Shown here in pieces: positions 6,569-50,927 of a DNA stretch of 51,698 nt. Position 1 is the stretch's first letter; each line of letters opens with the position of its first letter. Both the position numbers and the translations under genes were made by a program. This DNA is from Bryobacterales bacterium (GTDB lineage Bacteria > Acidobacteriota > Terriglobia > Bryobacterales > Bryobacteraceae), in contig PLOR01000028.1 in the NCBI GenBank assembly GCA_003142185.1, forward strand, positions 1 through 51,698. Reading direction: 5' to 3'. The notes under the pieces are model-generated. The model saw only the letters and a program-made list of their open reading frames with translations. It was not told where the DNA came from and searched no databases.

Positions 6569-7054
6569 TCAGTTCTTCGAAAAATAGCCGGGAAGCGAGT
6601 CGGGCTCGTCGTCTTCGGGAGTCCGGGACATGATTTCGTCTTCGATGCCGCCAAACTCGTCGTACCAGTCCGGCTGCAGTTCGTACACGTAGAGGCGCGA
6701 GTCGTGATCGAACGCCAGTTCCAGGGAACAGGTCAAGCCGGTGAAGACGCGCAGTTCATGCAGGCGCGATTCGTACTCGCGGCGCTCCTCCCGGCTCAGA
6801 TCGCAATCGTCGAGCTGGGCTTCCAGCTCTTCGATGTCGGAAGACTCAAACTCGGCCGAGGCGAAGAGGATCAGCTTGGCGCCGCACTTCTGCGCGACGT
6901 CGAGAAACGCCTGGAAGTCGGGATGCTTTTCGGTGTCCCAGAGCACCAGCCCCAGCCCTTCCAGGCCGCCCGGCCGGTTGTGAAAGACGGCGAAACCGGC
7001 TGAGTCGAGATACTCCAAAATTTCGCGCTTGAGCGTATCGAGATTTAAATCCAC
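6569..7054 (-). CDS. Unknown 161-residue acidic protein downstream of BMC operon
   Basis: No family recognised. It is an acidic soluble protein with a predicted alpha/beta N-terminal half (residues 1-75; patterns such as FAVFHNRPGG and GLGLVLWDT), a charged helical middle (about 70-100) and an aromatic, acidic C-terminus (YELQPDWYDEFGG). There is no signal peptide, membrane segment or cysteine cluster. GTG start at 7054, with GAGG nine bases upstream. It begins 11 bases after the second stop codon of the aldehyde dehydrogenase frame, so it is probably on the BMC transcript, but nothing ties it to microcompartments beyond position. Confidence 0.7.
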   Translation of the reverse strand: MDLNLDTLKREILEYLDSAGFAVFHNRPGGLEGLGLVLWDTEKHPDFQAFLDVAQKCGAKLILFASAEFESSDIEELEAQLDDCDLSREERREYESRLHELRVFTGLTCSLELAFDHDSRLYVYELQPDWYDEFGGIEDEIMSRTPEDDEPDSLPGYFSKN

Positions 7055-7065
7055 TTGGGTTCGCC

Positions 7066-7275
7066 TCAGGCCTGAACCAACACCAGAATATCAGAGGGAC
7101 TGGCCAGGTCGCGGGCGGACGGCGTAACAATCGTCCTAGGCCCGATGAATATCTTGCGTTTCTCCTTGATGGCGTCGCGCACGTCGGCTTCGCACACAAA
7201 ACCCACCGGTGCGGGCGTAGGCGCGGGCTGTGATGGCGCCGGCGGTGGCGCGTGCTCCGGCGCGGGCGCGGTCAG
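7066..7275 (-). other. In-frame 69-codon continuation of the aldehyde dehydrogenase beyond UGA
   Basis: Directly after the UGA that ends the aldehyde dehydrogenase (7276-7278) the same frame stays open for 69 codons to a second UGA at 7066. The first ~24 residues continue the Pro/Ala-rich linker style of the upstream C-terminus. They are followed by a compact segment beginning VGFVCEADVRDAIKE and containing KIFIGPRTIVTPSARDLA. About three quarters of third codon positions are G or C, as in real genes here. There is no ATG; a GTG at 7206 could start a 46-residue peptide. The likely readings are a recent nonsense mutation, a base error, or regulated readthrough (the UGA is followed by C, a leaky context). 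Confidence 0.6.
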
Positions 7276-8919
7276 TCAGGTGTAGCCGCTACTGGAATCG
7301 CCGCCGCGGCGCGCCAGGAAGCGGTCCACCACGCTCGATGCCACGTTCGGCGCCACCGAGGAAGTCACCGCGGGCGCCGGCGGAGCGCACGACGCGTTAC
7401 AGGAGGGACCGCCCGCGGCCGGCGCCGCAACCGCCGCGCCGCGCGATGCCAGATAGCGTTCCACCGCCGCCACCACGGCGCTGCGGTCGATTCCGATGGG
7501 TGCGTCCGCGGCCGATGGGCCGTTCGGCGCCAGGTTGATATCCATGGGCATCTCGAAGGCCTCTTCCGGCTTGCGAATTACGTACGCCAGACGCTTGACG
7601 TTGATCAGGTGCAGCGGACCCACGTTGTCGGATGTGATGTTGCCCGCGATGGCGCCGCAGCCGAGGGTCATGCCGGGTAACAGGTTGGTGGTGATGCCGG
7701 TGGAACCCTGCGGCGCGGGCGTGTTCACCAGCACCCGCATGGCCGGCATGCGCGAACCGTACTCGCGGGTGCGCGCGTCGTCGCGCGAGTAAATCACCGC
7801 CGTGTGGCCTAGTCCGCCGAACTTCAGCAGCGCGTAACAGGTATCGAGCGCCGCCGCAAAATCGGCAAGCCAGATCAGCGCCAGCACCGGCGACAGCTTT
7901 TCCATCGAAAGCGGGTGCTGTTTGCCCACCCCTTCCACTTCGGCGCAAATGATGGAAGTATCCGGCGGCACTTCGAAACCCGCCATGCGCGCCAATTTGG
8001 TTGGCGCCTGGCCCACGCACTGAGGGTTAATGCTGAAGTTGGGCATCACCAGCAGCTTGCCCAGCGCTTCCTTTTGGGCGTCGGTGGCGATGTACGCCTT
8101 CTTCGCCTTGAGCAACGCCAGAATACGGTCGCGCAGCGAGCGTTCGGCCACTAGCGCCTGCTCGCTCGAACACACCGTGCCATAGTCGAAGCTCTTGCCG
8201 GCGACGATTTTGGGGATGGCATCTTCCAGGTCGGCCGAAGTGTCCACCAGCACCGGCACGTTGCCCGGCCCTCCGCCGAATGCCGGCTTGCCGCTCGAAT
8301 AGGCGGCCTTCACCATGCCCGGTCCGCCGGTGGCCAGGATAACGCCGGTGCGCTCATGCCGCATCAACGCGGTGGTGCCTTCGAGAGTGGCCGTGTCGAT
8401 GCACTGAATGATGTCCTCGGGCGCGCCTGCCTCGACCGCCGCCTGGTATAGGATGCCGGCCGCGGCGCAGCTGCATTTGTGGGCACGCGGGTGCGGGCTG
8501 ATGACGATCGCGTTGCCCGCCTTGAGCGAAATCAGAATCTTGTAGAACGCCGTCGAAGTGGGGTTGGTGGTGGGCAGAATCGCCGCTACCACGCCTACCG
8601 GAACGCCGAACTCGACGATCTTCTCTTCCGGCAGTTCGCGCAGCAGGCCCATCGTTTTCACGCCCCGCATGCGTCGCGGCAGCCAGTCGCAGTTCAGCAG
8701 GTTCTTGATGTACTTGTCTTGGGCGTTGCCGTAGCCGGTTTCTTCAACCGCCATTTCAGCCAGCCGGCGGGCGTTCGCGCGCGCGGCCGCCGCCGCCGCT
8801 TCGACAATCGCATCCACCTGTTGCTGGGTATAGCTCCGGTATTTGAGGGAGGCCTGATAGGCCTTGTCGACCTTGGAGCGGACCTCCTGAATGGACAGGA
8901 GATCTTTATCGGCAAGCAT
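7276..8919 (-). CDS. BMC-associated CoA-acylating aldehyde dehydrogenase (PduP/EutE type)
   Basis: Oxidises an aldehyde with NAD+ and CoA to an acyl-CoA inside a bacterial microcompartment. The 547 residues include the fold motifs ILPTTNPTSTAFYK, TGGPGMVKAAYSSG and GGGPGNVPV, with catalytic Cys250 in DYGTVCSSEQ. After the catalytic domain (to about 470) lie two amphipathic helices joined by a Pro/Ala/Ser linker, at about 477-494 (DRSAVVAAVERYLASRG) and 523-538 (VASSVVDRFLARRG). These look like encapsulation peptides that target cargo to shells. The ATG is six bases after the shell gene stop. Aldehyde specificity (acetyl versus propionyl) is open, and no diol dehydratase or ammonia lyase is nearby. 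The frame continues past the stop (see 7066-7275). Confidence 0.9.
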   Translation of the reverse strand: MLADKDLLSIQEVRSKVDKAYQASLKYRSYTQQQVDAIVEAAAAAARANARRLAEMAVEETGYGNAQDKYIKNLLNCDWLPRRMRGVKTMGLLRELPEEKIVEFGVPVGVVAAILPTTNPTSTAFYKILISLKAGNAIVISPHPRAHKCSCAAAGILYQAAVEAGAPEDIIQCIDTATLEGTTALMRHERTGVILATGGPGMVKAAYSSGKPAFGGGPGNVPVLVDTSADLEDAIPKIVAGKSFDYGTVCSSEQALVAERSLRDRILALLKAKKAYIATDAQKEALGKLLVMPNFSINPQCVGQAPTKLARMAGFEVPPDTSIICAEVEGVGKQHPLSMEKLSPVLALIWLADFAAALDTCYALLKFGGLGHTAVIYSRDDARTREYGSRMPAMRVLVNTPAPQGSTGITTNLLPGMTLGCGAIAGNITSDNVGPLHLINVKRLAYVIRKPEEAFEMPMDINLAPNGPSAADAPIGIDRSAVVAAVERYLASRGAAVAAPAAGGPSCNASCAPPAPAVTSSVAPNVASSVVDRFLARRGGDSSSGYT

Positions 8920-8925
8920 GGCCCG

Positions 8926-9207
8926 CTACTTTTTCAGGCCGCTGGTGGGCAGGGCCTTTTCCACTTCCTCGTGCGGGTTGGGAATGACGTGAACGCTGAC
9001 CAGTTCGCCGACGCGCCGGGCTGCCGCGGCGCCCGCATCGGTGGCCGCTTTGACCGCGCCCACGTCGCCGCGCACGGTGACCATCACCAGACCGGCGCCC
9101 ACGAATTCCTTGCCGGTCAGCACCACATTGGCCGTCTTGACCATGGCATCGGCAGCTTCAATGGCGGGGACCAGCCCCTTGGTTTCGATCATGCCGAGTG
9201 CTTCCAT
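8926..9207 (-). CDS. BMC-H hexameric microcompartment shell protein
   Basis: A 93-residue single BMC-domain protein of the PduA/EutM/CsoS1 type, which assembles as hexamers that tile the shell facets. The N-terminal signature [21 protein letters not shown] and the pore-loop region [10 protein letters not shown] are clear, with helix [14 protein letters not shown] after the pore. The start is the ATG at 9207, five bases after a near-perfect GGAGG (9212-9216). A TTG at 9219 is in frame but would overlap that ribosome site. Only one shell gene is present. A closed shell also needs pentameric BMC-P vertices and usually BMC-T trimers, so the remaining shell genes must lie elsewhere if a compartment forms. 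Confidence 0.93.
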
Positions 9208-9274
9208 TACATCCTCCAAACGAGTGTGAACTCACTAACCTAACACACTTTCGGGACCAGCAGGCTCAGTGGTG

Positions 9275-40347: not shown

Positions 40348-41856
40348 ATGACGAAGGTTATAGATATCACTGAACTTATACTTAGGGACGGCCATCAGAG
40401 CCTGCTGGCTACGCGGATGGCGATGGAAGACATGATTCCGGCCTGCGAGGACATAGATAAGGCGGGCTTTTGGTCGGCTGAATGTTGGGGCGGCGCCACG
40501 TTCGACGCCTGCATCCGTTTTCTCAACGAAGATCCGTGGGAGCGGCTGCGCACCTTCCGCAAGCTGATGCCCAACACGCGGTTGCAGATGCTGCTGCGCG
40601 GGCAGAACCTGCTCGGCTACCGGCACTACGAAGACACGGTGGTGGATCGCTTCGTGGAGAAGGCGGCGGCGAACGGGATGGACGTGTTCCGCGTGTTCGA
40701 TGCGTTGAACGACATCCGCAACATCCGGCGCGCGGTGGCGGCGGTGCAGCGCGCCGGCAAACACGCGCAGGGCACCATCTGTTACACGGTCAGTCCGCTG
40801 CACACCATCACCGGCTTCGTCGAGATGGCGGAGCGGCTGCTGGAGTTGGGCTGCGATTCGATCTGCATCAAGGACATGGCCGCGCTGCTGAAACCGCAAC
40901 CGGCGTACGATCTGGTGAAGGCCATCAAGCAGGCCTGCGGCGAAGAAACGCGCGTACACGTGCACGTGCATGCCACCACCGGAGTCACCATGGTGAGCCT
41001 GATGAAGGCCATCGAGGCGGGAGCGGACTGCGTGGATACCTCGATCAGCTCGCTCAGCCTGGGCCCGGGCCACAATCCCACCGAAAGCCTGATGGAGATG
41101 CTGGAAGGCACGCCCTATTCGACCCGCGTGGATAAGAAGCGGCTGCTGGCGATCAAGCGGCATTTCGACAAGATCCGCCCGCGCTACAAGGAATTCCTTT
41201 CCAACATCACCGGCGTGGACACGGAGATCTTCGACAGCCAGATTCCCGGCGGCATGATTTCCAACCTGGAAAGCCAGCTCAAGCAGCAGAAGGCGGGCGA
41301 CCGCATGAAAGAAGTGCTGGAGGAAGTGCCGCGGGTGCGCGAGGACGCCGGTTTCCCGCCGCTGGTGACGCCATCCAGCCAGATCATCGGCACGCAAGCG
41401 GTTTTCAACGTGATGATGGGCCGGTACAAAGTAATGACCGGCGAGTTCGCCGACCTGATGCTGGGCTACTACGGCGAAACGCTGGGCCGGCGCAACCGCC
41501 ACGTGGTGGAGATGGCCAACAAACAGACCAACAAGCAGCCCATCGACACCCGCCCAGCGGATCTGCTGAAGCCCGAATGGCAGGAATTGCGGTCGGCGGC
41601 GCTGGCGGTGGATGGCTGCAACGGGTCGGACGAAGACGTGCTCACTTACGCGATGTTTCCGGGTGTCGCGCCGAAGTTCTTCCCCGCGCGCGCGAAAGGC
41701 CCCAAGAACCTGGGCAAGGATCCGTCCTCGGCGCCGGCGCCAGCGCCGGCTCCGGCTCCAGCGGCGGAAAACGGGAAGGGCCCGGTAACTACCACCATCA
41801 CCTATGACGTGAAGCTGAACGGCCACACCCACAAAGTGACGGTATCGCCGGCGTAA
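40348..41856 (+). CDS. Transcarboxylase 5S subunit (pyruvate/oxaloacetate carboxyltransferase)
   Basis: Transfers a carboxyl group between oxaloacetate/pyruvate and the biotin carrier. The 502 residues form an HMGL-like TIM barrel with metal ligands Asp14 (LRDGHQS), His206 and His208 (VHVHVHATTG) and the carbamylated Lys175 (CIKDMA). All are offset by nine from the positions known for Propionibacterium 5S. A Pro/Ala linker near 470 leads to a short tail, ITYDVKLNGHTHKVTV. This looks like the first strands of a biotinyl domain, as if the carrier had once been fused here. First gene of the block. The alternative role as an OadA/PycB-type decarboxylase subunit is less likely without membrane subunits. 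Confidence 0.93.
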   Translation: MTKVIDITELILRDGHQSLLATRMAMEDMIPACEDIDKAGFWSAECWGGATFDACIRFLNEDPWERLRTFRKLMPNTRLQMLLRGQNLLGYRHYEDTVVDRFVEKAAANGMDVFRVFDALNDIRNIRRAVAAVQRAGKHAQGTICYTVSPLHTITGFVEMAERLLELGCDSICIKDMAALLKPQPAYDLVKAIKQACGEETRVHVHVHATTGVTMVSLMKAIEAGADCVDTSISSLSLGPGHNPTESLMEMLEGTPYSTRVDKKRLLAIKRHFDKIRPRYKEFLSNITGVDTEIFDSQIPGGMISNLESQLKQQKAGDRMKEVLEEVPRVREDAGFPPLVTPSSQIIGTQAVFNVMMGRYKVMTGEFADLMLGYYGETLGRRNRHVVEMANKQTNKQPIDTRPADLLKPEWQELRSAALAVDGCNGSDEDVLTYAMFPGVAPKFFPARAKGPKNLGKDPSSAPAPAPAPAPAAENGKGPVTTTITYDVKLNGHTHKVTVSPA

Positions 41857-41909
41857 AAAGGCGTCGATAAATCGGAATCGATGAAGTCAAGATCACGAGA
41901 GCTCGAAAT

Positions 41910-43463
41910 ATGACCACCACGGCAATGCAAGAGAAGATCGAAGAGTTGAAGCGGCGTCGCGAAACGGTAATGCTGGGCGGCGGGGCGGACAAGCTGGAAA
42001 AGCAACGCCAGTCGGGGAAGCTGACCGCGCGCGAACGCATCGACGCGCTGGTCGATCCGGCCAGCTTCGAAGAGAACGGTCTGTTCGCCGAGCACCGCGC
42101 CACCATGTTCGGCATGGAAGGCAAGAGCTTGCCGGCCGATGGCGTGGTAACTGGCGCGGCGTCGGTGGGCGGGCGCCTGATCCACCTGGCCAGCCAGGAC
42201 TTCACGGTGATGGGCGGCGCGGCCGGCGAGGTGCATTCCATCAAGGTCGCCGAAGTCATGCAGATGGCGCTGAAGACCGGCTCGCCGTTTGTGTTCATCA
42301 ACGATTCCGGCGGCGCGCGCGTGCAGGAAGGCATCGACTCGCTTTCCGGCTACGGCAAGGTGTTCTACGCCAACGTGATGCTTTCGGGCGCGGTGCCCCA
42401 GGTTTCGCTGATCTGCGGACCGTGCGCGGGCGGCGCGGCGTACAGCCCGGCGCTCACCGATTTCATCATCCAGACCCGCCAGGCGCAGATGTTCATCACC
42501 GGACCTTCGGTGATCAAGCAGGTAACCGGCGAGGTCGTCACCGCCGAGCAACTGGGCGGCGCGGAAGCGCACATGGTGAATTCGGGCGTGATCCACTTCA
42601 TCGCGGAAAACGACCGGCACGCGGTGGCGCTGTGCCAGAAGCTGCTCAGCTTCCTGCCCAACAACAATATGGAGGATCCGCCGCAGGTGCAGGGCGACGC
42701 CGACGTGGATCCCAACCCGGCGCTCGAAGACATGGTGCCCGTGGATGGCAAAAAAGGGTACGACGTTCGCACCGTGATTCTGAAGGTGGTGGACTTCGGC
42801 GATTTCCTGGAAGTGCAGTCCGGTTTCGCGCAGAACATCGTGATCGGCTTCGCGCGGGTGAATGGCCGCACGGTGGGAGTGATCGCCAACCAGCCGGCGG
42901 TGATGGCGGGCGCGCTGGATATCAACGCATCGAGCAAGGCTTCGCGGTTCATTCGCTTCTGCAACGCGTTCAATATCTCGCTGCTGACTTTCGTCGACGT
43001 GCCGGGCTTCCTGCCGGGCGTGCAGCAGGAGCACGGCGGCATCATCCGACACGGCGCCAAAATGCTCTTCGCATATTCGGCGGCCACGGTTCCCAAGATC
43101 ACGGTGATCCTGCGCAAGTGTTACGGCGGCGCCTACCTGGCGATGTGCGGCAAGGACCTGGGCGCGGACCGCGTATTCGCCTGGCCCACCGCGGAAGTGG
43201 CCGTGATGGGCGCGGAAGGCGCGGCGGAGATCGTGTTCCGCAAGGAAATTCAGGAAGCCGAGGACAAGGCCGCGCGGCGCAAGGAGCTGATCGCGCGTTA
43301 CCGCGAGGCGTTTTCCAATCCTTACGTGGCCGCCGGGCGCCGCCTGGTGGACGCAGTGATTGAGCCGGCGCTGACTCGCCGCCACGTGGCGCGTGCGCTC
43401 GAATATCTGGGCACCAAGCGCGAGCTGCGCCCGCCCAAGAAGCACGGCTTGATGCCGCTGTAG
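41910..43463 (+). CDS. Transcarboxylase 12S subunit (methylmalonyl-/propionyl-CoA carboxyltransferase)
   Basis: Moves the carboxyl group between biotin and propionyl-CoA to make (S)-methylmalonyl-CoA. The 517 residues form two crotonase-fold halves. The N-terminal half has KLTARERIDALVD, INDSGGARVQEG and the oxyanion glycines in CGPCAGGAAYSPA. The C-terminal half has FVDVPGFLPGVQQEHGG, KCYGGAYLAM and AVMGAEGAAEIVF. Length and motifs equal 12S and PccB/MmdA. Context (5S plus a separate carrier, no biotin carboxylase, no sodium-pump membrane subunit) favours transcarboxylase. Confidence 0.94.
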   Translation: MTTTAMQEKIEELKRRRETVMLGGGADKLEKQRQSGKLTARERIDALVDPASFEENGLFAEHRATMFGMEGKSLPADGVVTGAASVGGRLIHLASQDFTVMGGAAGEVHSIKVAEVMQMALKTGSPFVFINDSGGARVQEGIDSLSGYGKVFYANVMLSGAVPQVSLICGPCAGGAAYSPALTDFIIQTRQAQMFITGPSVIKQVTGEVVTAEQLGGAEAHMVNSGVIHFIAENDRHAVALCQKLLSFLPNNNMEDPPQVQGDADVDPNPALEDMVPVDGKKGYDVRTVILKVVDFGDFLEVQSGFAQNIVIGFARVNGRTVGVIANQPAVMAGALDINASSKASRFIRFCNAFNISLLTFVDVPGFLPGVQQEHGGIIRHGAKMLFAYSAATVPKITVILRKCYGGAYLAMCGKDLGADRVFAWPTAEVAVMGAEGAAEIVFRKEIQEAEDKAARRKELIARYREAFSNPYVAAGRRLVDAVIEPALTRRHVARALEYLGTKRELRPPKKHGLMPL

Positions 43464-43476
43464 CGCGAGGCCGAAG

Positions 43477-43812
43477 ATGACCACCGAGATACAAACGACT
43501 GAACTCGAAGCTCTGATCCGCGATATCCGCGCGCAACTGGCCGCGCTGGCGGAGCGCGTGGCGCACCTCGAAGCCCCGGCCGCGCCGGCTGTGGCCGCGG
43601 CGCCCACGGAAATTGCCAAGGAAGAGCCCACCGAAGCGGCGGAAGCGCCGGCCGCGCCGGAGATCGGCGAAGAGGAACTGCTGGCCATTTCCGCCGCGCT
43701 GGCCGCCTATTTCGGAGTGCGGGTGCACGTGCGGCAGATCCGCCTCATCAGCTCGTCGGCCTGGGCCCAACAGGGACGCGTGTCGATCCAGGCCTCGCAC
43801 AGACTTTTCTAA
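43477..43812 (+). CDS. Small accessory subunit of the carboxyltransferase (unnamed)
   Basis: A 111-residue protein between the 12S and biotin-carrier genes. Residues 1-33 are a likely coiled helix (LEALIRDIRAQLAALAERV), 34-62 an Ala/Pro/Glu linker, and 64-111 a compact end (EEELLAISAALAAYFGVR, RVSIQASHRL). The C-terminal part recalls the ends of OadG-type gamma or epsilon subunits that tether carboxylase parts, but there is no membrane helix. Position suggests a scaffold joining 12S to the carrier. ATG 13 bases after the 12S stop. Confidence 0.65.
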   Translation: MTTEIQTTELEALIRDIRAQLAALAERVAHLEAPAAPAVAAAPTEIAKEEPTEAAEAPAAPEIGEEELLAISAALAAYFGVRVHVRQIRLISSSAWAQQGRVSIQASHRLF

Positions 43813-43825
43813 TCAGGACTTACCC

Positions 43826-44209
43826 GTGAAGCTAACCATTAAGATCGATCAGAAGACTTACGAAGTGGACGTGGACGCCGCCGAGCCGGAGGCTCCCAGC
43901 CAGGCGCCGCGCGGGTACGTGATGGAATCCGCGCCGGTGCGCGTTCCAGCCGCTCCGATGGCGGCGCCGCCCGGGCCATCGGGCTCGGTGAACGAGGAAA
44001 AAGTGTGCCGCAGCCCGGTTTCCGGCAATGTGGTGCGGGTGATGGCGCACGCGGGTCAGAGCATCCAGGTGGGCGACGTTCTGCTGGTGCTCGAGGCCAT
44101 GAAGATGGAAACGAATATCACCGCTCCGGTATCCGGCAAGCTGGCCGCCGTCAAAGTCAACGCCGGCGAAAGCGTGCAGTCCGGGCAGGTGGTTGTGGAG
44201 TTCGAATAA
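43826..44209 (+). CDS. Biotin carboxyl carrier subunit (1.3S)
   Basis: A 127-residue biotinyl carrier. Biotin is attached at Lys93 in LVLEAMKMETNITAP; the hammerhead domain spans about 58-127 after a Pro/Ala hinge (34-54). The first strands (KLTIKIDQKTYEVDV) are typical of Propionibacterium-like 1.3S. Starts with GTG, nine bases after AGGA. Its stop overlaps the epimerase start by one base (TAATG). Confidence 0.94.
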   Translation: MKLTIKIDQKTYEVDVDAAEPEAPSQAPRGYVMESAPVRVPAAPMAAPPGPSGSVNEEKVCRSPVSGNVVRVMAHAGQSIQVGDVLLVLEAMKMETNITAPVSGKLAAVKVNAGESVQSGQVVVEFE

Positions 44210-44676
44210 TGAGTGATGAACTGAAACAAATACCCGGTTTTCTGTTTTTCGACCACGTAGCGGTTTCGGTACGTCCCGGCGAGCTGGAAGCGCACGTCGC
44301 GGCGTACCGGGCGCTCGGTTTCTGTGAAGTGCACCGCGAGGACGTGCTCGGCTCCGACCAGGTTCGCGAGGTCCTGCTGCAAGTGGGCGACGGTCCCAAC
44401 CTGGTGCAATTGCTGGAGCCATTGACGCCGGAATCGCCGGTCGCGAAGCAGATCGAAAAGAACGGCGGCCGCGGCGGCCTCGCACACGTGGCGCTGCGCG
44501 TATCCGGCATTCAGAAGGCCTTCGACTATCTGAAGGAAAAGGGATTCAAGATCATCGACAAAGCGCCGCGCAAAGGCTCGCGCGGCACCACGGTGTTCTT
44601 CATCCATCCCAAGACCACCGAAACCGCGGCGTTCGGCTACTTGATCGAGGTGGTCGAGGAGGGCAGCCATGCCTGA
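44209..44676 (+). CDS. mce: Methylmalonyl-CoA epimerase
   Basis: Interconverts the (S) and (R) forms of methylmalonyl-CoA. The 155-residue VOC-fold protein has the metal-ligand His in FFDHVAVSV, the Gln/Glu strand NLVQLLEPL, His in RGGLAHVALRV, and the C-terminal Glu strand LIEVVEE. The match to methylmalonyl-CoA epimerases, rather than other VOC proteins, is supported by its place between the carrier and mutase genes. The start overlaps the carrier stop; its own stop overlaps mutA by eight bases. Confidence 0.9.
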   Translation: MSDELKQIPGFLFFDHVAVSVRPGELEAHVAAYRALGFCEVHREDVLGSDQVREVLLQVGDGPNLVQLLEPLTPESPVAKQIEKNGGRGGLAHVALRVSGIQKAFDYLKEKGFKIIDKAPRKGSRGTTVFFIHPKTTETAAFGYLIEVVEEGSHA

Positions 44677-46108
44677 GGATCTGCCCGGCGCCGAGATTCT
44701 AAACCTGGGCCAGGATTTTCCGCCGGTTCCCACCGCCGTCTGGGAGGCGGCCATCGCGAAGGACCTGAAGGGCGCCGACTACGCGAAGAAGCTGGTGTGG
44801 CGCACCGACGAGGGGCTGGCGGTGCGGCCTTATTATCGCGCCGAGAACCTGGCCGGTCTCGAGGCGCAAACCCAAACCTCGCCGGGGCAGTTCCCCTTTG
44901 CGCGCGGCAGCGGCAAGCCGTGGGAGGCCGCCGACGCTGTGCCCACCGGCGCCAATGTGATTCGCGCCGATGAACTGGGGGAGGCCGGCGGCAACGCCGT
45001 GCAGCAATTGGGCTACGCGCTGGCCGCGGGCGTCGAGCGGCTGACCGCGCTGGCCGCAACGGGCACGGTGGATGAAGCCGCGCGGTCGATCGAATTCGTT
45101 TTCTCCGTCGGATCGACTTATTTCCTGGAGATCGCCAAGCTGCGCGCCGCGCGGCTGATTTGGGCGCAAGCGGTAGCGGCATTTGGGCCGACCGACCCGC
45201 AATGCGCGCTGGCCCGTATCCATGCGCGCACCACGCGCCTGGACAAGAGCGTGTATGACCACTACACCAACCTGCTCCGCGTGACCACCGAAGCGCTGGC
45301 GGCCGCGGTTGGCGGCTGTGACCGGTTGACGGTCGAGCCGTTCGGTTTCGATCAGCACCTGGCGGTGAACATCGGGCGCATTCTGCGCCATGAAGCGCAC
45401 GTGGACGCGGTGGCCGATCCGGCGGGCGGCTCCTATTACGTCGAAGCGCTGACCGATTCGCTGGCCCGCGCAGCGTGGAAGCTCTTCCAGCAGGTGGAAG
45501 CCGCCGGCGGTTACAGCCAGGCGGTGGAATCGGGCGCCATCGCCAAAGCTTTGGCGGAAAGCCGCGCCAAGCTTCAGAAGGCCGTGGCATCGCGCTACCG
45601 CACGCTGGTGGGCGTCAACAATTTTCCGGATCTGAAGGAAAAATCGGCGGAGGCAACGGCGCCCCCGGCCGAAAGCGGCGCGGCATTTCCCGCCTTTCGC
45701 CTGGCGGAAGCTTTCGAAACAATCCGCCGCCGCACCGAGCGCCACGCCGCCAAGACGGGCCGCGTTCCGACAGTGCTGCTGCTCATGCGCGGCGACCTTA
45801 AAATGCGCATGGCGCGCGCCAATTTCAGCCTCAACTTTTTCGGCTGCGCCGGCTTTGACGTCGTCGAGGCGGAAGAGTATGCGAGCGCCGGTGCGGATCT
45901 GATCGTGCTGTGCAGCTCCGACGCGGAATACCTGGCGCTGGCGCAGGAAGTCTGCCCGGCCGCCGGAGTGCCGGTGATTGTGGCGGGCAATCCGAAGGAG
46001 CAGATCGACGCGCTGAAGGCCGCCGGCGTGGCGGGCTTCATTCACGTACAAAGCGACGCCGTCCAAACCCTCAGCGAGTGGCAAAAGCGGCTGGGGATGG
46101 AGGAGTAA
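44669..46108 (+). CDS. mutA: Methylmalonyl-CoA mutase small (non-catalytic) subunit
   Basis: A 479-residue partner of MutB. It has the mutase barrel parts [24 protein letters not shown] and DPAGGSYYVEALTDSLARAAW, and a B12-domain remnant at about 365-479 without the cobalamin-binding DxHxxG. Well-known MutA proteins are above 600 residues. Here the region after FPFARG (about 77) seems to skip straight to a late barrel segment, so roughly 130 residues of barrel are missing. Similar short small subunits exist in other phyla, so this is probably native. ATG overlaps the epimerase end. Confidence 0.88.
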   Translation: MPEDLPGAEILNLGQDFPPVPTAVWEAAIAKDLKGADYAKKLVWRTDEGLAVRPYYRAENLAGLEAQTQTSPGQFPFARGSGKPWEAADAVPTGANVIRADELGEAGGNAVQQLGYALAAGVERLTALAATGTVDEAARSIEFVFSVGSTYFLEIAKLRAARLIWAQAVAAFGPTDPQCALARIHARTTRLDKSVYDHYTNLLRVTTEALAAAVGGCDRLTVEPFGFDQHLAVNIGRILRHEAHVDAVADPAGGSYYVEALTDSLARAAWKLFQQVEAAGGYSQAVESGAIAKALAESRAKLQKAVASRYRTLVGVNNFPDLKEKSAEATAPPAESGAAFPAFRLAEAFETIRRRTERHAAKTGRVPTVLLLMRGDLKMRMARANFSLNFFGCAGFDVVEAEEYASAGADLIVLCSSDAEYLALAQEVCPAAGVPVIVAGNPKEQIDALKAAGVAGFIHVQSDAVQTLSEWQKRLGMEE

Positions 46109-46111
46109 GCG

Positions 46112-48250
46112 ATGAAACCGGATTTTTCGAAAATCGACTACCAGCCGAAACCCGGGGCCGCGGCGCCTGTCACGCCCGGGGATGATTGGACGACGGTGGA
46201 GCGCATCGCGGTGAAGCCCTGGTACACGGCCAGCGACCTTTACGCGATGGAGCACCTCGAGTACGCCGCCGGCGTGCCGCCGTTTCTACGCGGGCCGTAC
46301 TCCACCATGTACGCGCTGCAACCGTGGACCATTCGCCAATATGCGGGCTTCTCCACCGCCGAAGAATCGAACGCGTTTTACCGGCGCAATCTGGCCGCCG
46401 GGCAGAAGGGCCTCTCGGTGGCGTTCGACCTGGCCACCCATCGCGGCTACGATTCCGACAATGACCGCGTGGTGGGTGACGTCGGCAAAGCGGGCGTGGC
46501 GATCGATAGCGTCGAAGACATGAAGATTCTCTTCGATCAGATCCCGCTCGGCCAGATGTCGGTATCGATGACCATGAATGGCGCCGTGCTGCCGGTGCTG
46601 GCGTTCTACATCGTGGCGGCCGAAGAGCAGGGCGTGAAGCCGGAACAACTGACCGGGACCATTCAGAACGACATTCTGAAAGAGTTCATGGTCCGCAACA
46701 CGTACATCTACCCGCCGGCGCCTTCGATGCGGATCATCGGTGACATCTTCCGCTACTCGGCGGAGCGGATGCCGAAGTACAACTGCATTTCGATCAGCGG
46801 TTACCACATGCAGGAAGCCGGCGCGACGGCCGACATCGAGCTCGGCTACACGCTGGCCGATGGCGTGGAATACGTGCGCACGGGCATCGCCGCCGGTTTG
46901 GATATCGACGCTTTCGCGCCGCGGCTGAGCTTCTTCTGGGGCATCGGCATGAACCACTTCATGGAGATCGCCAAACTGCGCGCGGCGCGCGTGCTGTGGG
47001 CCAAGCTGATTCACGGGTTCAATCCCAAGAATCCCAAGTCGATGGCGCTGCGCACGCATTCGCAGACTTCCGGCTGGAGTCTCACCGCGCAGGACGCCTT
47101 CAACAACGTGGCGCGCACGGCCGTGGAAGCGCTGGCCGCGGTGCTGGGGCATACCCAATCGCTGCACACCAACGCACTCGACGAAGCCATCGCGCTGCCG
47201 ACGGACTTTTCCGCGCGCATCGCGCGCAACACGCAAATCTACCTGCAACTGGAAACCGGCATCACGCGCGCGGTGGATCCCTGGGCCGGCAGCTATTACG
47301 TGGAGAGCCTCACCCACGAGCTGATGCACAAGGCGTGGCATCATATTCAGGAAGTCGAAAGCCTGGGCGGCATGGCCAAGGCGATCGAAACCGGCATCCC
47401 CAAGATGCGGATTGAAGAAGCGGCCGCGCGCCGCCAGGCTTACATCGATTCCGGCCGTGAGATCATCGTGGGCGTGAACCGGTACCAGACCGGCAGCGAG
47501 GAGCACCTCGACACGCGCGAAGTGGATAACGGCGCCGTGCGCGATTCGCAACTACGCCGCCTGGCGCAAGTGCGCGCGGCGCGCGACGGCCGCGCGGTGG
47601 AAGAAACTCTGGCGGCCTTGACCGCGAGCGCCGCGACGGGCGAAGGGAACCTGCTCGATCTCGCCGTCCAGGCGGCGCGCGCCCGCGCCACGCTGGGCGA
47701 GATTTCCGCGGCGCTCGAAAAAGTGTTCGGCCGCTACCAGGCCGTCAACCGCACCATCTCGGGCGTTTATTCCTCGGAGAGCCAGGCCGATCCCGAATTC
47801 CAGAAAGCGCGCAAGCTGGCGGACGAATTCGGCAAAGCCGAAGGGCGGCGGCCGCGCATCCTGATCGCCAAGATGGGCCAGGACGGCCACGACCGCGGTG
47901 CCAAAGTCATCGCCACCGCTTTCGCCGATCTCGGCTTCGACGTCGACGTGGGGCCGCTGTTCCAGACGCCGCTCGAAGCGGCGCGCATGGCGGTGGAGAA
48001 CGACGTGCACGTGCTCGGCGTATCGAGCCTGGCCGGCGGCCACAAAACACTCGTCCCGGAAGTGATCGCCGAGCTGCGCAAATTCGGCCGCGACGACATC
48101 CTGGTTTACGTGGGCGGCGTGATTCCGCCGCAGGATTACGATTTCCTGTTCCAGGCGGGCGTGGCCGGCGTGTTCGGCCCTGGCACCGTGATCCCTGTGT
48201 GCGCGCAGAAAATCCTTCATGCGCTGATGGGTACGGTTCGTGCGGCGTAG
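46112..48250 (+). CDS. mutB: Methylmalonyl-CoA mutase large (catalytic) subunit
   Basis: Adenosylcobalamin-dependent rearrangement of (R)-methylmalonyl-CoA to succinyl-CoA. The 712 residues have the barrel entrance [20 protein letters not shown] and the C-terminal B12 domain with axial His593 in [16 protein letters not shown]. Radical-controlling Tyr and His residues lie within well-conserved stretches. It begins three bases after mutA. A 155-base gap holding a large hairpin repeat separates it from its GTPase chaperone gene. Function depends on B12; no cobalamin genes or cobalamin riboswitch are in the window. Confidence 0.97.
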
Positions 48251-48254
48251 TCGC

Positions 48255-48388
48255 GTGGCGCGGGCTGTCAAGCCTGCTGTGTCGAGAGTCGTCTCGACAT
48301 TTCTTCTCTTTGAGCCACCTGAGACTCGGCCCGGGCCAAGAAACGTCGCCACGACTGGCGACGCTGCAGGCAGGACTGCCCGCGCCAC
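48255..48388. repeat. Repeat family D, copy 3: 134-base multi-hairpin element
   Basis: Bounded by an 11-base perfect inverted repeat, GTGGCGCGGGC (48255-48265) and GCCCGCGCCAC (48378-48388). Inside are two perfect eight-base-stem hairpins with four-base loops: TGTCGAGA-GTCG-TCTCGACA (48280-48299) and CGTCGCCA-CGAC-TGGCGACG (48344-48363). It sits between mutB and meaB on the operon's sense strand. Confidence 0.75.
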
Positions 48389-48405
48389 GGTGCACAGTCA
48401 GACTC

Positions 48406-49422
48406 ATGCCGGCTAGCTCGCTCCATCACCGGCGTAGGCTGCCGCTCGAACGCTACACGGAGGGCATTCTGCGCGGCGACCGCGTCATTCTCGCGCGCGC
48501 CATCACGGTGGTGGAAAGCGATCTCCCAGCCGATGGCGAACTGGCGGCGCGGATGCTCGATGCGATTCTGCCCGCCACCGGCAAATCGCGGCGCGTCGGC
48601 ATCACCGGCGTGCCGGGCGTTGGCAAGAGCACCTTCATCGACGCTCTCGGCATGCATCTGATCCGCCAGCGCGGCGAGCGCGTGGCCGTCCTCAGCGTCG
48701 ATCCATCCAGCCCCATTTCGGGCGGCAGCATCCTCGGCGACAAGACCCGCATGGAGCGACTCAGCGTGGAGGAGCGCGCCTTCATCCGGCCCTCGCCCGC
48801 GCGCGGGCATTTGGGCGGCGTGGCGCGGCGCACGCGCGAAACCATACTGTTGTGCGAGGCCGCCGGCTTCGAAAACGTGCTGGTGGAAACCGTGGGAGTG
48901 GGCCAATCGGAAACCGCGGTCCGTTCGATGACGGATTTCTTTCTGCTGCTGATGCTGGCCGGCGCCGGCGACGAATTGCAGGGCATCAAGCGCGGCATCA
49001 TCGAGATGATCGACGGCATGGTGATCAACAAAGCCGATGGCGACAACAAGCGGAAGGCCGAACGCGCGCGCGTGGAATATGCGAGCGCGCTGCACCTGTT
49101 CCCCGCCTCGGCCGATGGCTGGACGCCGCGCGTGCTCACCTGTTCGGCCCTCCACGGCGAGGGCGTGGCCGAAAGCTGGGACATGGTGCTCGATCACCGC
49201 CGGCAAATGGAAGCCTCCGGCCACCTGGCTGCGCGGCGCAGCGGGCAGGCGCTCGAATGGATGCGCGAGCTGGTCGGAATTGCGCTCGAAGATTCTTTCC
49301 GCGGCCACCAGGCCGTGGCGGCAAGGCTGCCGGGCCTGGAAGAGGCGGTGAGCCGTGGCCAGGTGACGCCGTTCGCCGCCAGCCGCGAGTTACTACAAAT
49401 TTATCGTTCGCAGGAGAAATAA
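48406..49422 (+). CDS. meaB: MeaB/ArgK GTPase, methylmalonyl-CoA mutase chaperone
   Basis: A G3E-family P-loop GTPase that gates cofactor loading and protects or reactivates methylmalonyl-CoA mutase. The 338 residues have Walker A GVPGVGKST (about 69), VLSVDPSSPISGGSILGDKTRM, VETVGVGQSE (switch/Walker B) and NKADGD (NKxD). The start is the ATG at 48406, just after the family D repeat; no strong ribosome site precedes it. Neighbouring mutA/mutB confirm the role. Confidence 0.95.
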   Translation: MPASSLHHRRRLPLERYTEGILRGDRVILARAITVVESDLPADGELAARMLDAILPATGKSRRVGITGVPGVGKSTFIDALGMHLIRQRGERVAVLSVDPSSPISGGSILGDKTRMERLSVEERAFIRPSPARGHLGGVARRTRETILLCEAAGFENVLVETVGVGQSETAVRSMTDFFLLLMLAGAGDELQGIKRGIIEMIDGMVINKADGDNKRKAERARVEYASALHLFPASADGWTPRVLTCSALHGEGVAESWDMVLDHRRQMEASGHLAARRSGQALEWMRELVGIALEDSFRGHQAVAARLPGLEEAVSRGQVTPFAASRELLQIYRSQEK

Positions 49423-49427
49423 TCCGA

Positions 49428-50927
49428 ATGTCATTTTCATTTCCCAAACTGACGGCGGAAGAGGCCGCCAGCCACATCCGACACGGTCAGACGGTAGGTT
49501 TCAGCGGCTTCACGCCGGCCGGCGCGCCCAAGGCGATTCCGCTGGCCGTTTCCAAGCGCGCCAAAGTGGAACACGAGTCGGGCCGCGAGTTTCAGATCGG
49601 CGTGCTGACCGGCGCTTCCACGGGACCTTCGCTCGATGGCGCGCTGGCCGAGGCTGCCGCCATCAGTTTCCGCACGCCGTATCAATCGAATGCCGCGCTG
49701 CGCTCGTCGATCAACAAGGGCGAAACGCGCTTCGTCGATATGCACCTTTCGATGCTGCCGCAGATTGTGCGCTACGGCTTCCTGGGGCCGGTGGACTGGG
49801 CGGTGGTGGAAGCCTGCGACCTGACATCGGGCGGCGGCATCGTGCTCAGCACATCGGTGGGAGCGGCGCCGACGTTTGTGGGGCGCGCCGGGAAAATCCT
49901 GATCGAGCTCAACCGGCGGCATCCGCCATCGCTGCTCGGCATGCACGATATCTACGAGCCGGCGGACCCGCCGCATCGCCACGAGATTCCCATCTACCAC
50001 GCCTCGGACCGCATCGGCTCGCCGCTGATCACCGTCGATCCATCGAAAATCGTCGGCGTGGTCGAAACCGATCTCGATGACGAATGCGCTCCGTTCAGCC
50101 CGCCCACGCCGGCGACGGAAAAAATCGGCCAGAACGTGGCCGAATTCCTGGTGGCGGAAATGCGCGCGGGCCGCATTCCCAAGAGCTTTCTGCCGCTGCA
50201 ATCGGGCGTGGGCGATGTCGCCAACAGCGTGCTGGGCGCGCTCGGGCGTTTGCCCGAAATCCCCGCCTTCGAAATGTACACCGAGGTATTGCAGGATTCG
50301 GTGGTTGATCTGCTCGAAAGCGGACGCTGCCGCTTCGCTTCGACTTGCTCGCTCACGCTCAGCCCGCCGGCCATGCGCCGCATCGTCGAGCAACTCAATC
50401 TGTTCCGCTCCAAGATCCTGATGCGCCCGCAGGAGATTTCGAATAACCCGGAGGTGGTGCGGCGCCTGGGCATCATCTCGATGAACACGGCGATTGAGGT
50501 GGACGTGTTCGGCAACGTCAACTCCACGCACGTGCTAGGCAAGCAGATGATGAACGGGATCGGCGGCTCAGGCGATTTCACGCGCAACGCGTACCTGTCG
50601 ATCTTCAGTTGCGCCTCCACCGCCAAGGGCGGCAAAATCTCCACCATCGTTCCCCTGGTGACGCACGTCGATCACAGCGAGCATTCCGTGCAGGTGGTGA
50701 TCACCGAGCAGGGCGTGGCCGATCTGCGCGGCCAGGACCCGCACGGCCGCGCCCGCATCATCATTGAGAATTGCGCGCATCCGAGCTTCCGCCCGCAACT
50801 GCTCGAATACATCGAAATCGTCAAGCACGGCCACACCCCGCAATCCCTGAGCCGCGCCTTCGCCATGCACCGCCAGTTCATCAGAACCGGAGATATGGGC
50901 GGGATCAAGTGGGAGGATTGGGCGTAA
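49428..50927 (+). CDS. Acyl-CoA:carboxylate CoA-transferase (propionyl-CoA:succinate type)
   Basis: Exchanges CoA between acyl-CoA and a free acid. A 499-residue class I CoA-transferase of the Ach1/ScpC/succinate-CoA transferase group: GFSGFTPAGAPKAIPL near the N-terminus, LLPLQSGVGDVANSV-type motif, and the strand IEVDVFGNVNSTHVLG whose Glu is the expected thioester-forming residue, followed by GIGGSGDFTRNA. Acetate, propionate and succinate variants cannot be told apart by eye. The place after mutA-mutB-meaB favours succinate/propionate exchange, closing the Wood-Werkman cycle. AGGAG about 11 bases before the ATG. Confidence 0.9.
   Translation: MSFSFPKLTAEEAASHIRHGQTVGFSGFTPAGAPKAIPLAVSKRAKVEHESGREFQIGVLTGASTGPSLDGALAEAAAISFRTPYQSNAALRSSINKGETRFVDMHLSMLPQIVRYGFLGPVDWAVVEACDLTSGGGIVLSTSVGAAPTFVGRAGKILIELNRRHPPSLLGMHDIYEPADPPHRHEIPIYHASDRIGSPLITVDPSKIVGVVETDLDDECAPFSPPTPATEKIGQNVAEFLVAEMRAGRIPKSFLPLQSGVGDVANSVLGALGRLPEIPAFEMYTEVLQDSVVDLLESGRCRFASTCSLTLSPPAMRRIVEQLNLFRSKILMRPQEISNNPEVVRRLGIISMNTAIEVDVFGNVNSTHVLGKQMMNGIGGSGDFTRNAYLSIFSCASTAKGGKISTIVPLVTHVDHSEHSVQVVITEQGVADLRGQDPHGRARIIIENCAHPSFRPQLLEYIEIVKHGHTPQSLSRAFAMHRQFIRTGDMGGIKWEDWA

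Follow-up and report, generated by a model that had tools for sequence, protein, structure and literature searches.

A UGA-CTG site conserved across twelve genera precedes a selected tail domain in a microcompartment aldehyde dehydrogenase of Bryobacterales and suggests stop-codon readthrough

The stretch of DNA that was analysed as a whole, here called the window, comprises positions 1 to 51,698 (51,698 nucleotides) of contig PLOR01000028.1 of a Bryobacterales bacterium (GCA_003142185.1), and holds on its minus strand a gene for an acylating aldehyde dehydrogenase that is divided by an in-frame UGA. Translation of 8919..7066 (−) gives 547 sense codons, a TGA at 7278-7276, a further 69 sense codons and a terminal stop at 7068-7066, which confirms the in-frame UGA and the 69-codon open tail reported in the initial annotation, and the two segments singled out there, VCEADVRDAIKE and GPRTIVTPSARDLA, are present in the translated tail. 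The features of the locus, in the coordinates of the window, are the following:

8926..9219, minus strand: gene of a BMC-H shell protein (PF00936, E 1.2e-27), directly upstream of the dehydrogenase
7276..8919, minus strand: acylating aldehyde dehydrogenase (PF00171, E 6e-29), short form of 547 residues, ending at the UGA
7444..7485, minus strand: first C-terminal helix (residues 479-492), encapsulation-peptide-like by appearance, from a low-confidence model (pLDDT <50)
7312..7353, minus strand: second C-terminal helix (residues 523-536), encapsulation-peptide-like by appearance, from a low-confidence model (pLDDT <50)
7276..7278, minus strand: codon 548, an in-frame UGA that 25 genomes retain
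7273..7275, minus strand: CTG codon next to the UGA, identical in 25 of 25 UGA genes
7207..7275, minus strand: Pro/Ala-rich linker of the extension, predicted to be disordered (translation and structure prediction)
7066..7206, minus strand: tail domain of 46 residues and stop, similar to the N-terminal segments of EutT and EutQ and predicted to fold (pN/pS, hhalign and AlphaFold2)
6569..7054, minus strand: next gene, encoding 161 residues from a GTG start 11 bases past the stop of the tail, with no match in Pfam or NCBIfam

Among NCBIfam models, those of AdhE and acetaldehyde dehydrogenase rank best for the dehydrogenase, each below its own cut-off. The gene of the 161-residue protein starts 6 to 37 bases past the stop of the tail in 20 of the 25 UGA genomes (a motif search that missed the other five), with GTG as the start codon in 19 of these 20, so that the interval before that gene is filled by the tail. 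The C-terminal linkers of the window (7276-7485) and of the homologues repeatedly show Cys-X-Cys-like motifs (SCGCS, SCNASC), which precede the second helix in UGA genes and frequently follow it in sense homologues.

The distribution of the interrupted gene was established with a query in which the UGA was read as W, run against the genome itself and 150 relatives, and then against 237 genomes of the family. The enzyme is present at E <= 1e-150 in 132 of these 237 genomes, and 24 of the 132 give a full-length match with exactly one TGA before the tail; a 25th UGA genome is G087, whose gene is disrupted by Ns and by a shift of frame, with the half bearing the UGA and the tail present. The second stop in the matches of G062, G287, G288 and G290 is the terminal one, while the dehydrogenase of G152 has an extra in-frame TAA near its N-terminus (about codon 30, locus L040), i.e., a further error or a broken copy. 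The rest of the 132 show no TGA in the matched stretch, some of these matches ending before the tail. The tail is fused without a stop in the 23 non-UGA genomes whose C-termini were read (22 of the family, and G108 of the same order). The initial annotation had proposed homologues that also keep the UGA as the sign of readthrough, and the absence of any homologue with the tail as its refutation; there are 25 genomes of the former kind, and the tail is carried by these and by the 23 read without the UGA. In the named collection, the record titles of the relatives are Bryobacterales, Bryobacteraceae, Candidatus Solibacter and Acidobacteria, plus two distant matches.

All 25 UGA genes have TGACTG at the site; the C noted early on after the UGA is correct, and the full context is UGA followed by CTG. 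Among the 24 UGA genes that could be aligned (G087 left out), 24 columns consist of Leu throughout, and the CTG behind the UGA is the one among them that is codon-invariant; for all residues with several codons, codon invariance is found in 4 of 220 invariant columns. With one gene per genus (12 genera), 1 of 28 Leu columns is codon-invariant, again the CTG behind the UGA, as compared with 17 of 246 columns overall, and leaving out G152 makes a second Leu column codon-invariant (2 of 29). The residues before the UGA are also constrained, with G, S or T in 25 of 25 genes, Y or F in 23 of 25 and G in 22 of 25. TGA is the only internal stop at the site, in contrast to the ends of these genes, where TGA is found in 14, TAA in seven and TAG in four. 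A stop context presumed to be leaky in this organism, UGA-CUG, is conserved in all UGA genes.

The phylogeny of the catalytic part (52 sequences) places the UGA genes in one clade of 30 leaves with a support of 1.0, made up of the 25 UGA genes together with G037, G065, G247, G292 and G232. The UGA genes span 12 genera, with pairwise identities down to 72% (first 490 alignment columns, 24 UGA genes), and this depth refutes the very recent nonsense change initially suggested. In-frame stops in bacterial genes have been judged short-lived, orthologous stops occurring mostly between sequences that are nearly identical (no mismatch over 30 bases in 71% of pairs), according to the portion of Belinky et al. 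2021 (PMC7918605) consulted; the present case is similar in that the stop lies inside a gene under purifying selection, and is set apart from those stops by the 12 genera that share it. As for the remaining members of the clade, the second helix and the UGA are deleted in G037 and the frame runs into the tail, G152 of the same genus retaining both; G065 has a TAG at the site and the tail is gone, so the tail is not essential everywhere; and G247, G292 and G232 were left unscored, their contigs ending short of the site. The outgroups, in which the tail is fused, suggest that the fused state is ancestral and that the change went from fused to UGA.

Similar inserts, RQTTKRDGLPHA and RQTTRNGGLPHG, lie past the second C-terminal helix at L059 and L017 (G063 and G065), which suggests that a mobile or intergenic repeat was inserted close to the site in two genomes, G065 being the one without the tail.

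The tail domain is under purifying selection, with pN/pS values of 0.12 to 0.34 in 13 pairs of UGA genes, contradicting the recent loss of the tail that had been envisaged. Constraint is weaker in the linker behind the UGA (0.31 to 2.07, from a small number of sites) and stronger in the catalytic part (0.07 to 0.24, 12 pairs). For the tail domain, pooling yields 0.25 across the 25 UGA genes and 0.30 across 22 of the 23 sense genes, the remaining one being without a motif match, and the tail of G001, of the same genus as the window, has a pN/pS of 0.19 against that of G000.

AlphaFold2 models of the long form (seven sequences) have a modest mean pLDDT of 63, with 74-86 by blocks in the tail and below 50 in the stretch 400-567, which includes the two C-terminal helices and the linker; the tail modelled alone reaches 91. 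By hhalign, the tail matches the N-terminal segment of EutT of E. coli K-12 with a probability of 80% (32% identity over 37 columns, with a TPSAR motif in common) and that of EutQ with a probability of 42%, and the genes of both proteins belong to a microcompartment operon in E. coli. These segments are N-terminal in EutT and EutQ, whereas the module described here is C-terminal on a dehydrogenase, with no other part of EutT or EutQ. In appearance, the tail is closer to a small folded module of the EutT/EutQ kind than to a classical encapsulation peptide. No Pfam family reaches its cut-off with the tail domain. Further copies in the same genome were absent from a single-sequence search, and a profile search gave one doubtful place (E 0.98). 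Among solved structures, no convincing relative of the tail was found by sequence, and by fold the best matches (Foldseek, E 0.86; VIA-align, Z 4.5, rmsd 2.1, 42 aligned) correspond to a common small arrangement, a missing match being no proof of a new fold.

A UGA followed by a selected sequence could also be decoded as selenocysteine, by SelB and tRNA-Sec acting through a SECIS hairpin just downstream, in which case the long form would be a new selenoprotein. Among the rivals this is the least unlikely. Nearly all UGA genomes own the Sec machinery: selA is above the cut-off in 25 of 33 genomes searched and selB in 29 of 32; of 26 genomes searched for selD, 24 have a match, and in 20 of these SelD contains an in-frame UGA. 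Both selB and selD are present in every UGA genome searched except G001, selD having been sought in 20 of the 25. The absence of selA is weak evidence, several hits lying at contig ends and G031, G152, G244 and G246 having selB and selD yet no selA match, and that of tRNA-Sec is weak per genome, with only 92 candidates scored in most. Moreover, a hairpin of 5-6 bp with a G-rich loop is found at the position of a SECIS, 15-30 bases past the UGA, in five genomes (G060, G073, G152, G244 and G246; L014, L015, L040, L042 and L043), with one compensatory pair (A-U replacing G-C in G060). Finally, G037, with no selA, selB or selD match, is the single member of the clade to have kept the tail but lost the UGA.

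However, taken one gene at a time, the hairpin of the five genomes does not outperform synonymous shuffles, and across the 25 dehydrogenase genes the lowest p for a SECIS-like hairpin against such shuffles is 0.073, with a combined p of 0.31. SelD uses Sec in this family and so serves as an internal positive control: in the same test, 18 UGA-bearing SelD genes give p values of 0.003-0.013 each and three Cys-bearing ones 0.10-0.15 (the SelD genes of G053, G294 and G031 were not extracted by the motif). It is this contrast with SelD that matters, combined p-values being overstated owing to the kinship of the sequences. The published SECIS rule, as taken from an excerpt of PMC13188914 that also describes some genuine elements as breaking it, is satisfied by a hairpin in 13 of the 25 dehydrogenase genes (10.9 expected), as opposed to 18 of 18 SelD genes (3.9 expected), and nine of the 25 have no hairpin that qualifies. 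G001 retains both the UGA-CTG and the tail, yet it gives no match to selA, selB or selD and no tRNA-Sec was found, the best place being a tRNA-Ser; its assembly is 91% complete, and the Sec genes may be missing from it. In the 23 sense homologues read, Cys never replaces the UGA within the flanking motif, their linkers aligning poorly. A test of folding energy over the 36 bases that follow the CTG yields no signal (combined p 0.97), and an Rfam scan of the window a single match at chance level. There is no SECIS signal across the clade, and selenocysteine is disfavoured and must be regarded as unlikely.

Two features of the selenocysteine trait itself emerge from these searches. G001 and G037 have no selA, selB or selD matches while most of their relatives use selenocysteine, apparently reflecting recent losses of the trait. 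As to SelD (loci L075, L078 and L097), it is a Sec protein in most of these genomes, but G065, G021 and G087 have Cys and also lack the SECIS hairpin.

The tail might instead be made as a separate small protein, through reinitiation at the CUG behind the stop or from an internal start, as could be thought from the invariance of the CTG and from an anti-Shine-Dalgarno pairing before it that, in most UGA genes, is stronger than in 80% or more of background windows. A selected start codon would nevertheless be expected to be ATG, GTG or TTG in some lineage, but CTG is present in 25 of 25; the pairing is at background level in G000, G021, G087 and G060; 8 of 25 genes lack the GTG at the tail-domain boundary; and the tail is fused in the relatives outside the clade. 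No start or ribosome-binding site for the tail is conserved across the 25 UGA genes, and a separate product seems improbable.

Slightly less plausible is a scenario where the UGA put an end to the use of the tail, which would be a leftover, the short form alone being made. The TAG of the tail-less G065 would fit such a history, as would the G001 lineage, which accounts for two of three tail-domain replacements in the comparison with its sister; a pN/pS of 0.12-0.34 in the tail domain and an invariant CTG across 12 genera are unexpected for a leftover. As for an assembly error, or a UGA read as a sense codon throughout these genomes, most of which are draft or metagenome assemblies, it is practically discounted by the identical TGACTG in 25 assemblies, which also refutes the sequencing error considered initially, and by the use of TGA as the terminal stop in 14 of 25 of the same genes and as a Sec codon in SelD.

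The best explanation, and in our judgement a probable one, is that this is a conserved programmed stop-codon readthrough gene. It draws on the conserved UGA-CUG, its restriction to one clade, the selection on the tail, the lack of a clade-wide SECIS signal and the lack of a conserved start site, with the caveat that the genomes are mostly drafts and that the UGA gene of G152 has another in-frame stop. Most ribosomes would stop at the UGA and release the 547-residue dehydrogenase, while some would decode it with a near-cognate tRNA, probably that of Trp, aided by the fixed UGA-CUG context, adding a Pro/Ala linker, predicted to be disordered, followed by the small folded module of the EutT/EutQ kind. 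Fused relatives carry the module on every subunit, and one lineage would have set a leaky stop before it, leaving it on a fraction only; a limited number of extended subunits in a many-copy assembly could then act as adaptor or organiser. We infer readthrough itself, its rate and the inserted residue from comparison of the genes.

UGA followed by CU suffices for efficient readthrough in fungi and mammals, in the portion of PMC4207609 seen, and UGA is the leakiest stop of E. coli, taking mostly Trp, in the section of PMC11126739 used here. The UGA-CU context is established in eukaryotes, whereas the same section of the E. coli study credits different downstream features, namely high G and low T. 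Near-cognate decoding, by Trp above all, would be the simplest proposal by analogy. A dedicated suppressor tRNA was sought and rejected, none of the 42 tRNA places that the tRNA model finds in the genome of the window reading a stop codon (tRNA-Sec being counted separately), and its one tRNA-Trp is ordinary-looking, with a 5-bp anticodon stem. A hairpin acting as a readthrough stimulator was likewise set aside for lack of clade-wide support in these tests, although G060, G073, G152, G244 and G246 and, separately, the genus of G059 have hairpins of their own.

We further infer that the tail helps in assembly or docking within the microcompartment. On balance, we lean towards a broader view, namely that programmed UGA-CUG readthrough equips a limited and perhaps condition-dependent fraction of an organelle enzyme with a module for assembly or docking, as a bacterial counterpart of peroxisomal readthrough, and derives from an ancestor with the module on every copy. 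The peroxisomal cases of fungi and animals, as far as they are described in the parts of PMC4207609 consulted, have in common with the present one a UGA followed by CU, a metabolic dehydrogenase, an organelle-linked extension and long conservation. They differ in that this gene is bacterial, the organelle protein-shelled and the CUG fixed, with readthrough proposed here from sequence comparison; in that the peroxisomal signal has three residues, as opposed to a folded 46-residue module behind a linker; and in that the helix-bearing short form may here already be encapsulated.

A second parallel is the programmed -1 frameshifting of csoS2 in alpha-carboxysomes, where, in the passages of PMC5009743 and PMC10484944 drawn upon, recoding likewise gives a microcompartment protein two alternative C-termini at a fixed ratio and the C-terminus decides shell contact. 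There, frameshifting occurs at about 50% and concerns a scaffold protein, whereas an in-frame UGA in a catabolic enzyme would be read through here. Bacterial selenoproteins such as SelD of the same genomes share an in-frame UGA with conserved sequence behind it, but the dehydrogenase has no clade-wide SECIS signal and its UGA is kept in a genome in which no Sec genes were found.

A literature search restricted to open-licence papers yielded, among the matches listed, no report of the gene or of readthrough in a microcompartment enzyme, and within that literature deeply conserved readthrough in bacterial cellular genes outside selenoproteins is hardly documented. If the proposal is true, recoding would control the number of microcompartment-enzyme subunits equipped with the module, much like frameshifting in the case of the carboxysome scaffold, and bacteria and eukaryotes would both employ the UGA-CU context for their organelles. 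With 25 natural replicates, a fused-state outgroup and a six-base context that does not vary, the case lends itself to direct tests of efficiency, decoding tRNA and function.

The compartment resembles the ACI type of Acidobacteria, in which, according to the part of PMC8217296 available, the aldehyde dehydrogenase lies on a satellite locus. In this 119-contig draft, the dehydrogenase is on contig C81, i.e., at a satellite locus apart from contig C110, which has a class II aldolase (PF00596), a BMC-H and two PF03319 (BMC-P) genes. A BMC-P triplet and a hydroxyacid dehydrogenase would also be expected of the ACI type; two BMC-P genes were seen, in the surroundings of the aldolase on C110. Contig C68 carries a double BMC domain and a protein with PF01512, PF13375 and PF10531, which we take to be PduS-like. 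At 40348-50927 of the window, about 31 kb from the dehydrogenase, translations judged by eye resemble a carboxyltransferase, a methylmalonyl-CoA mutase and a CoA-transferase, pointing to propionate metabolism.
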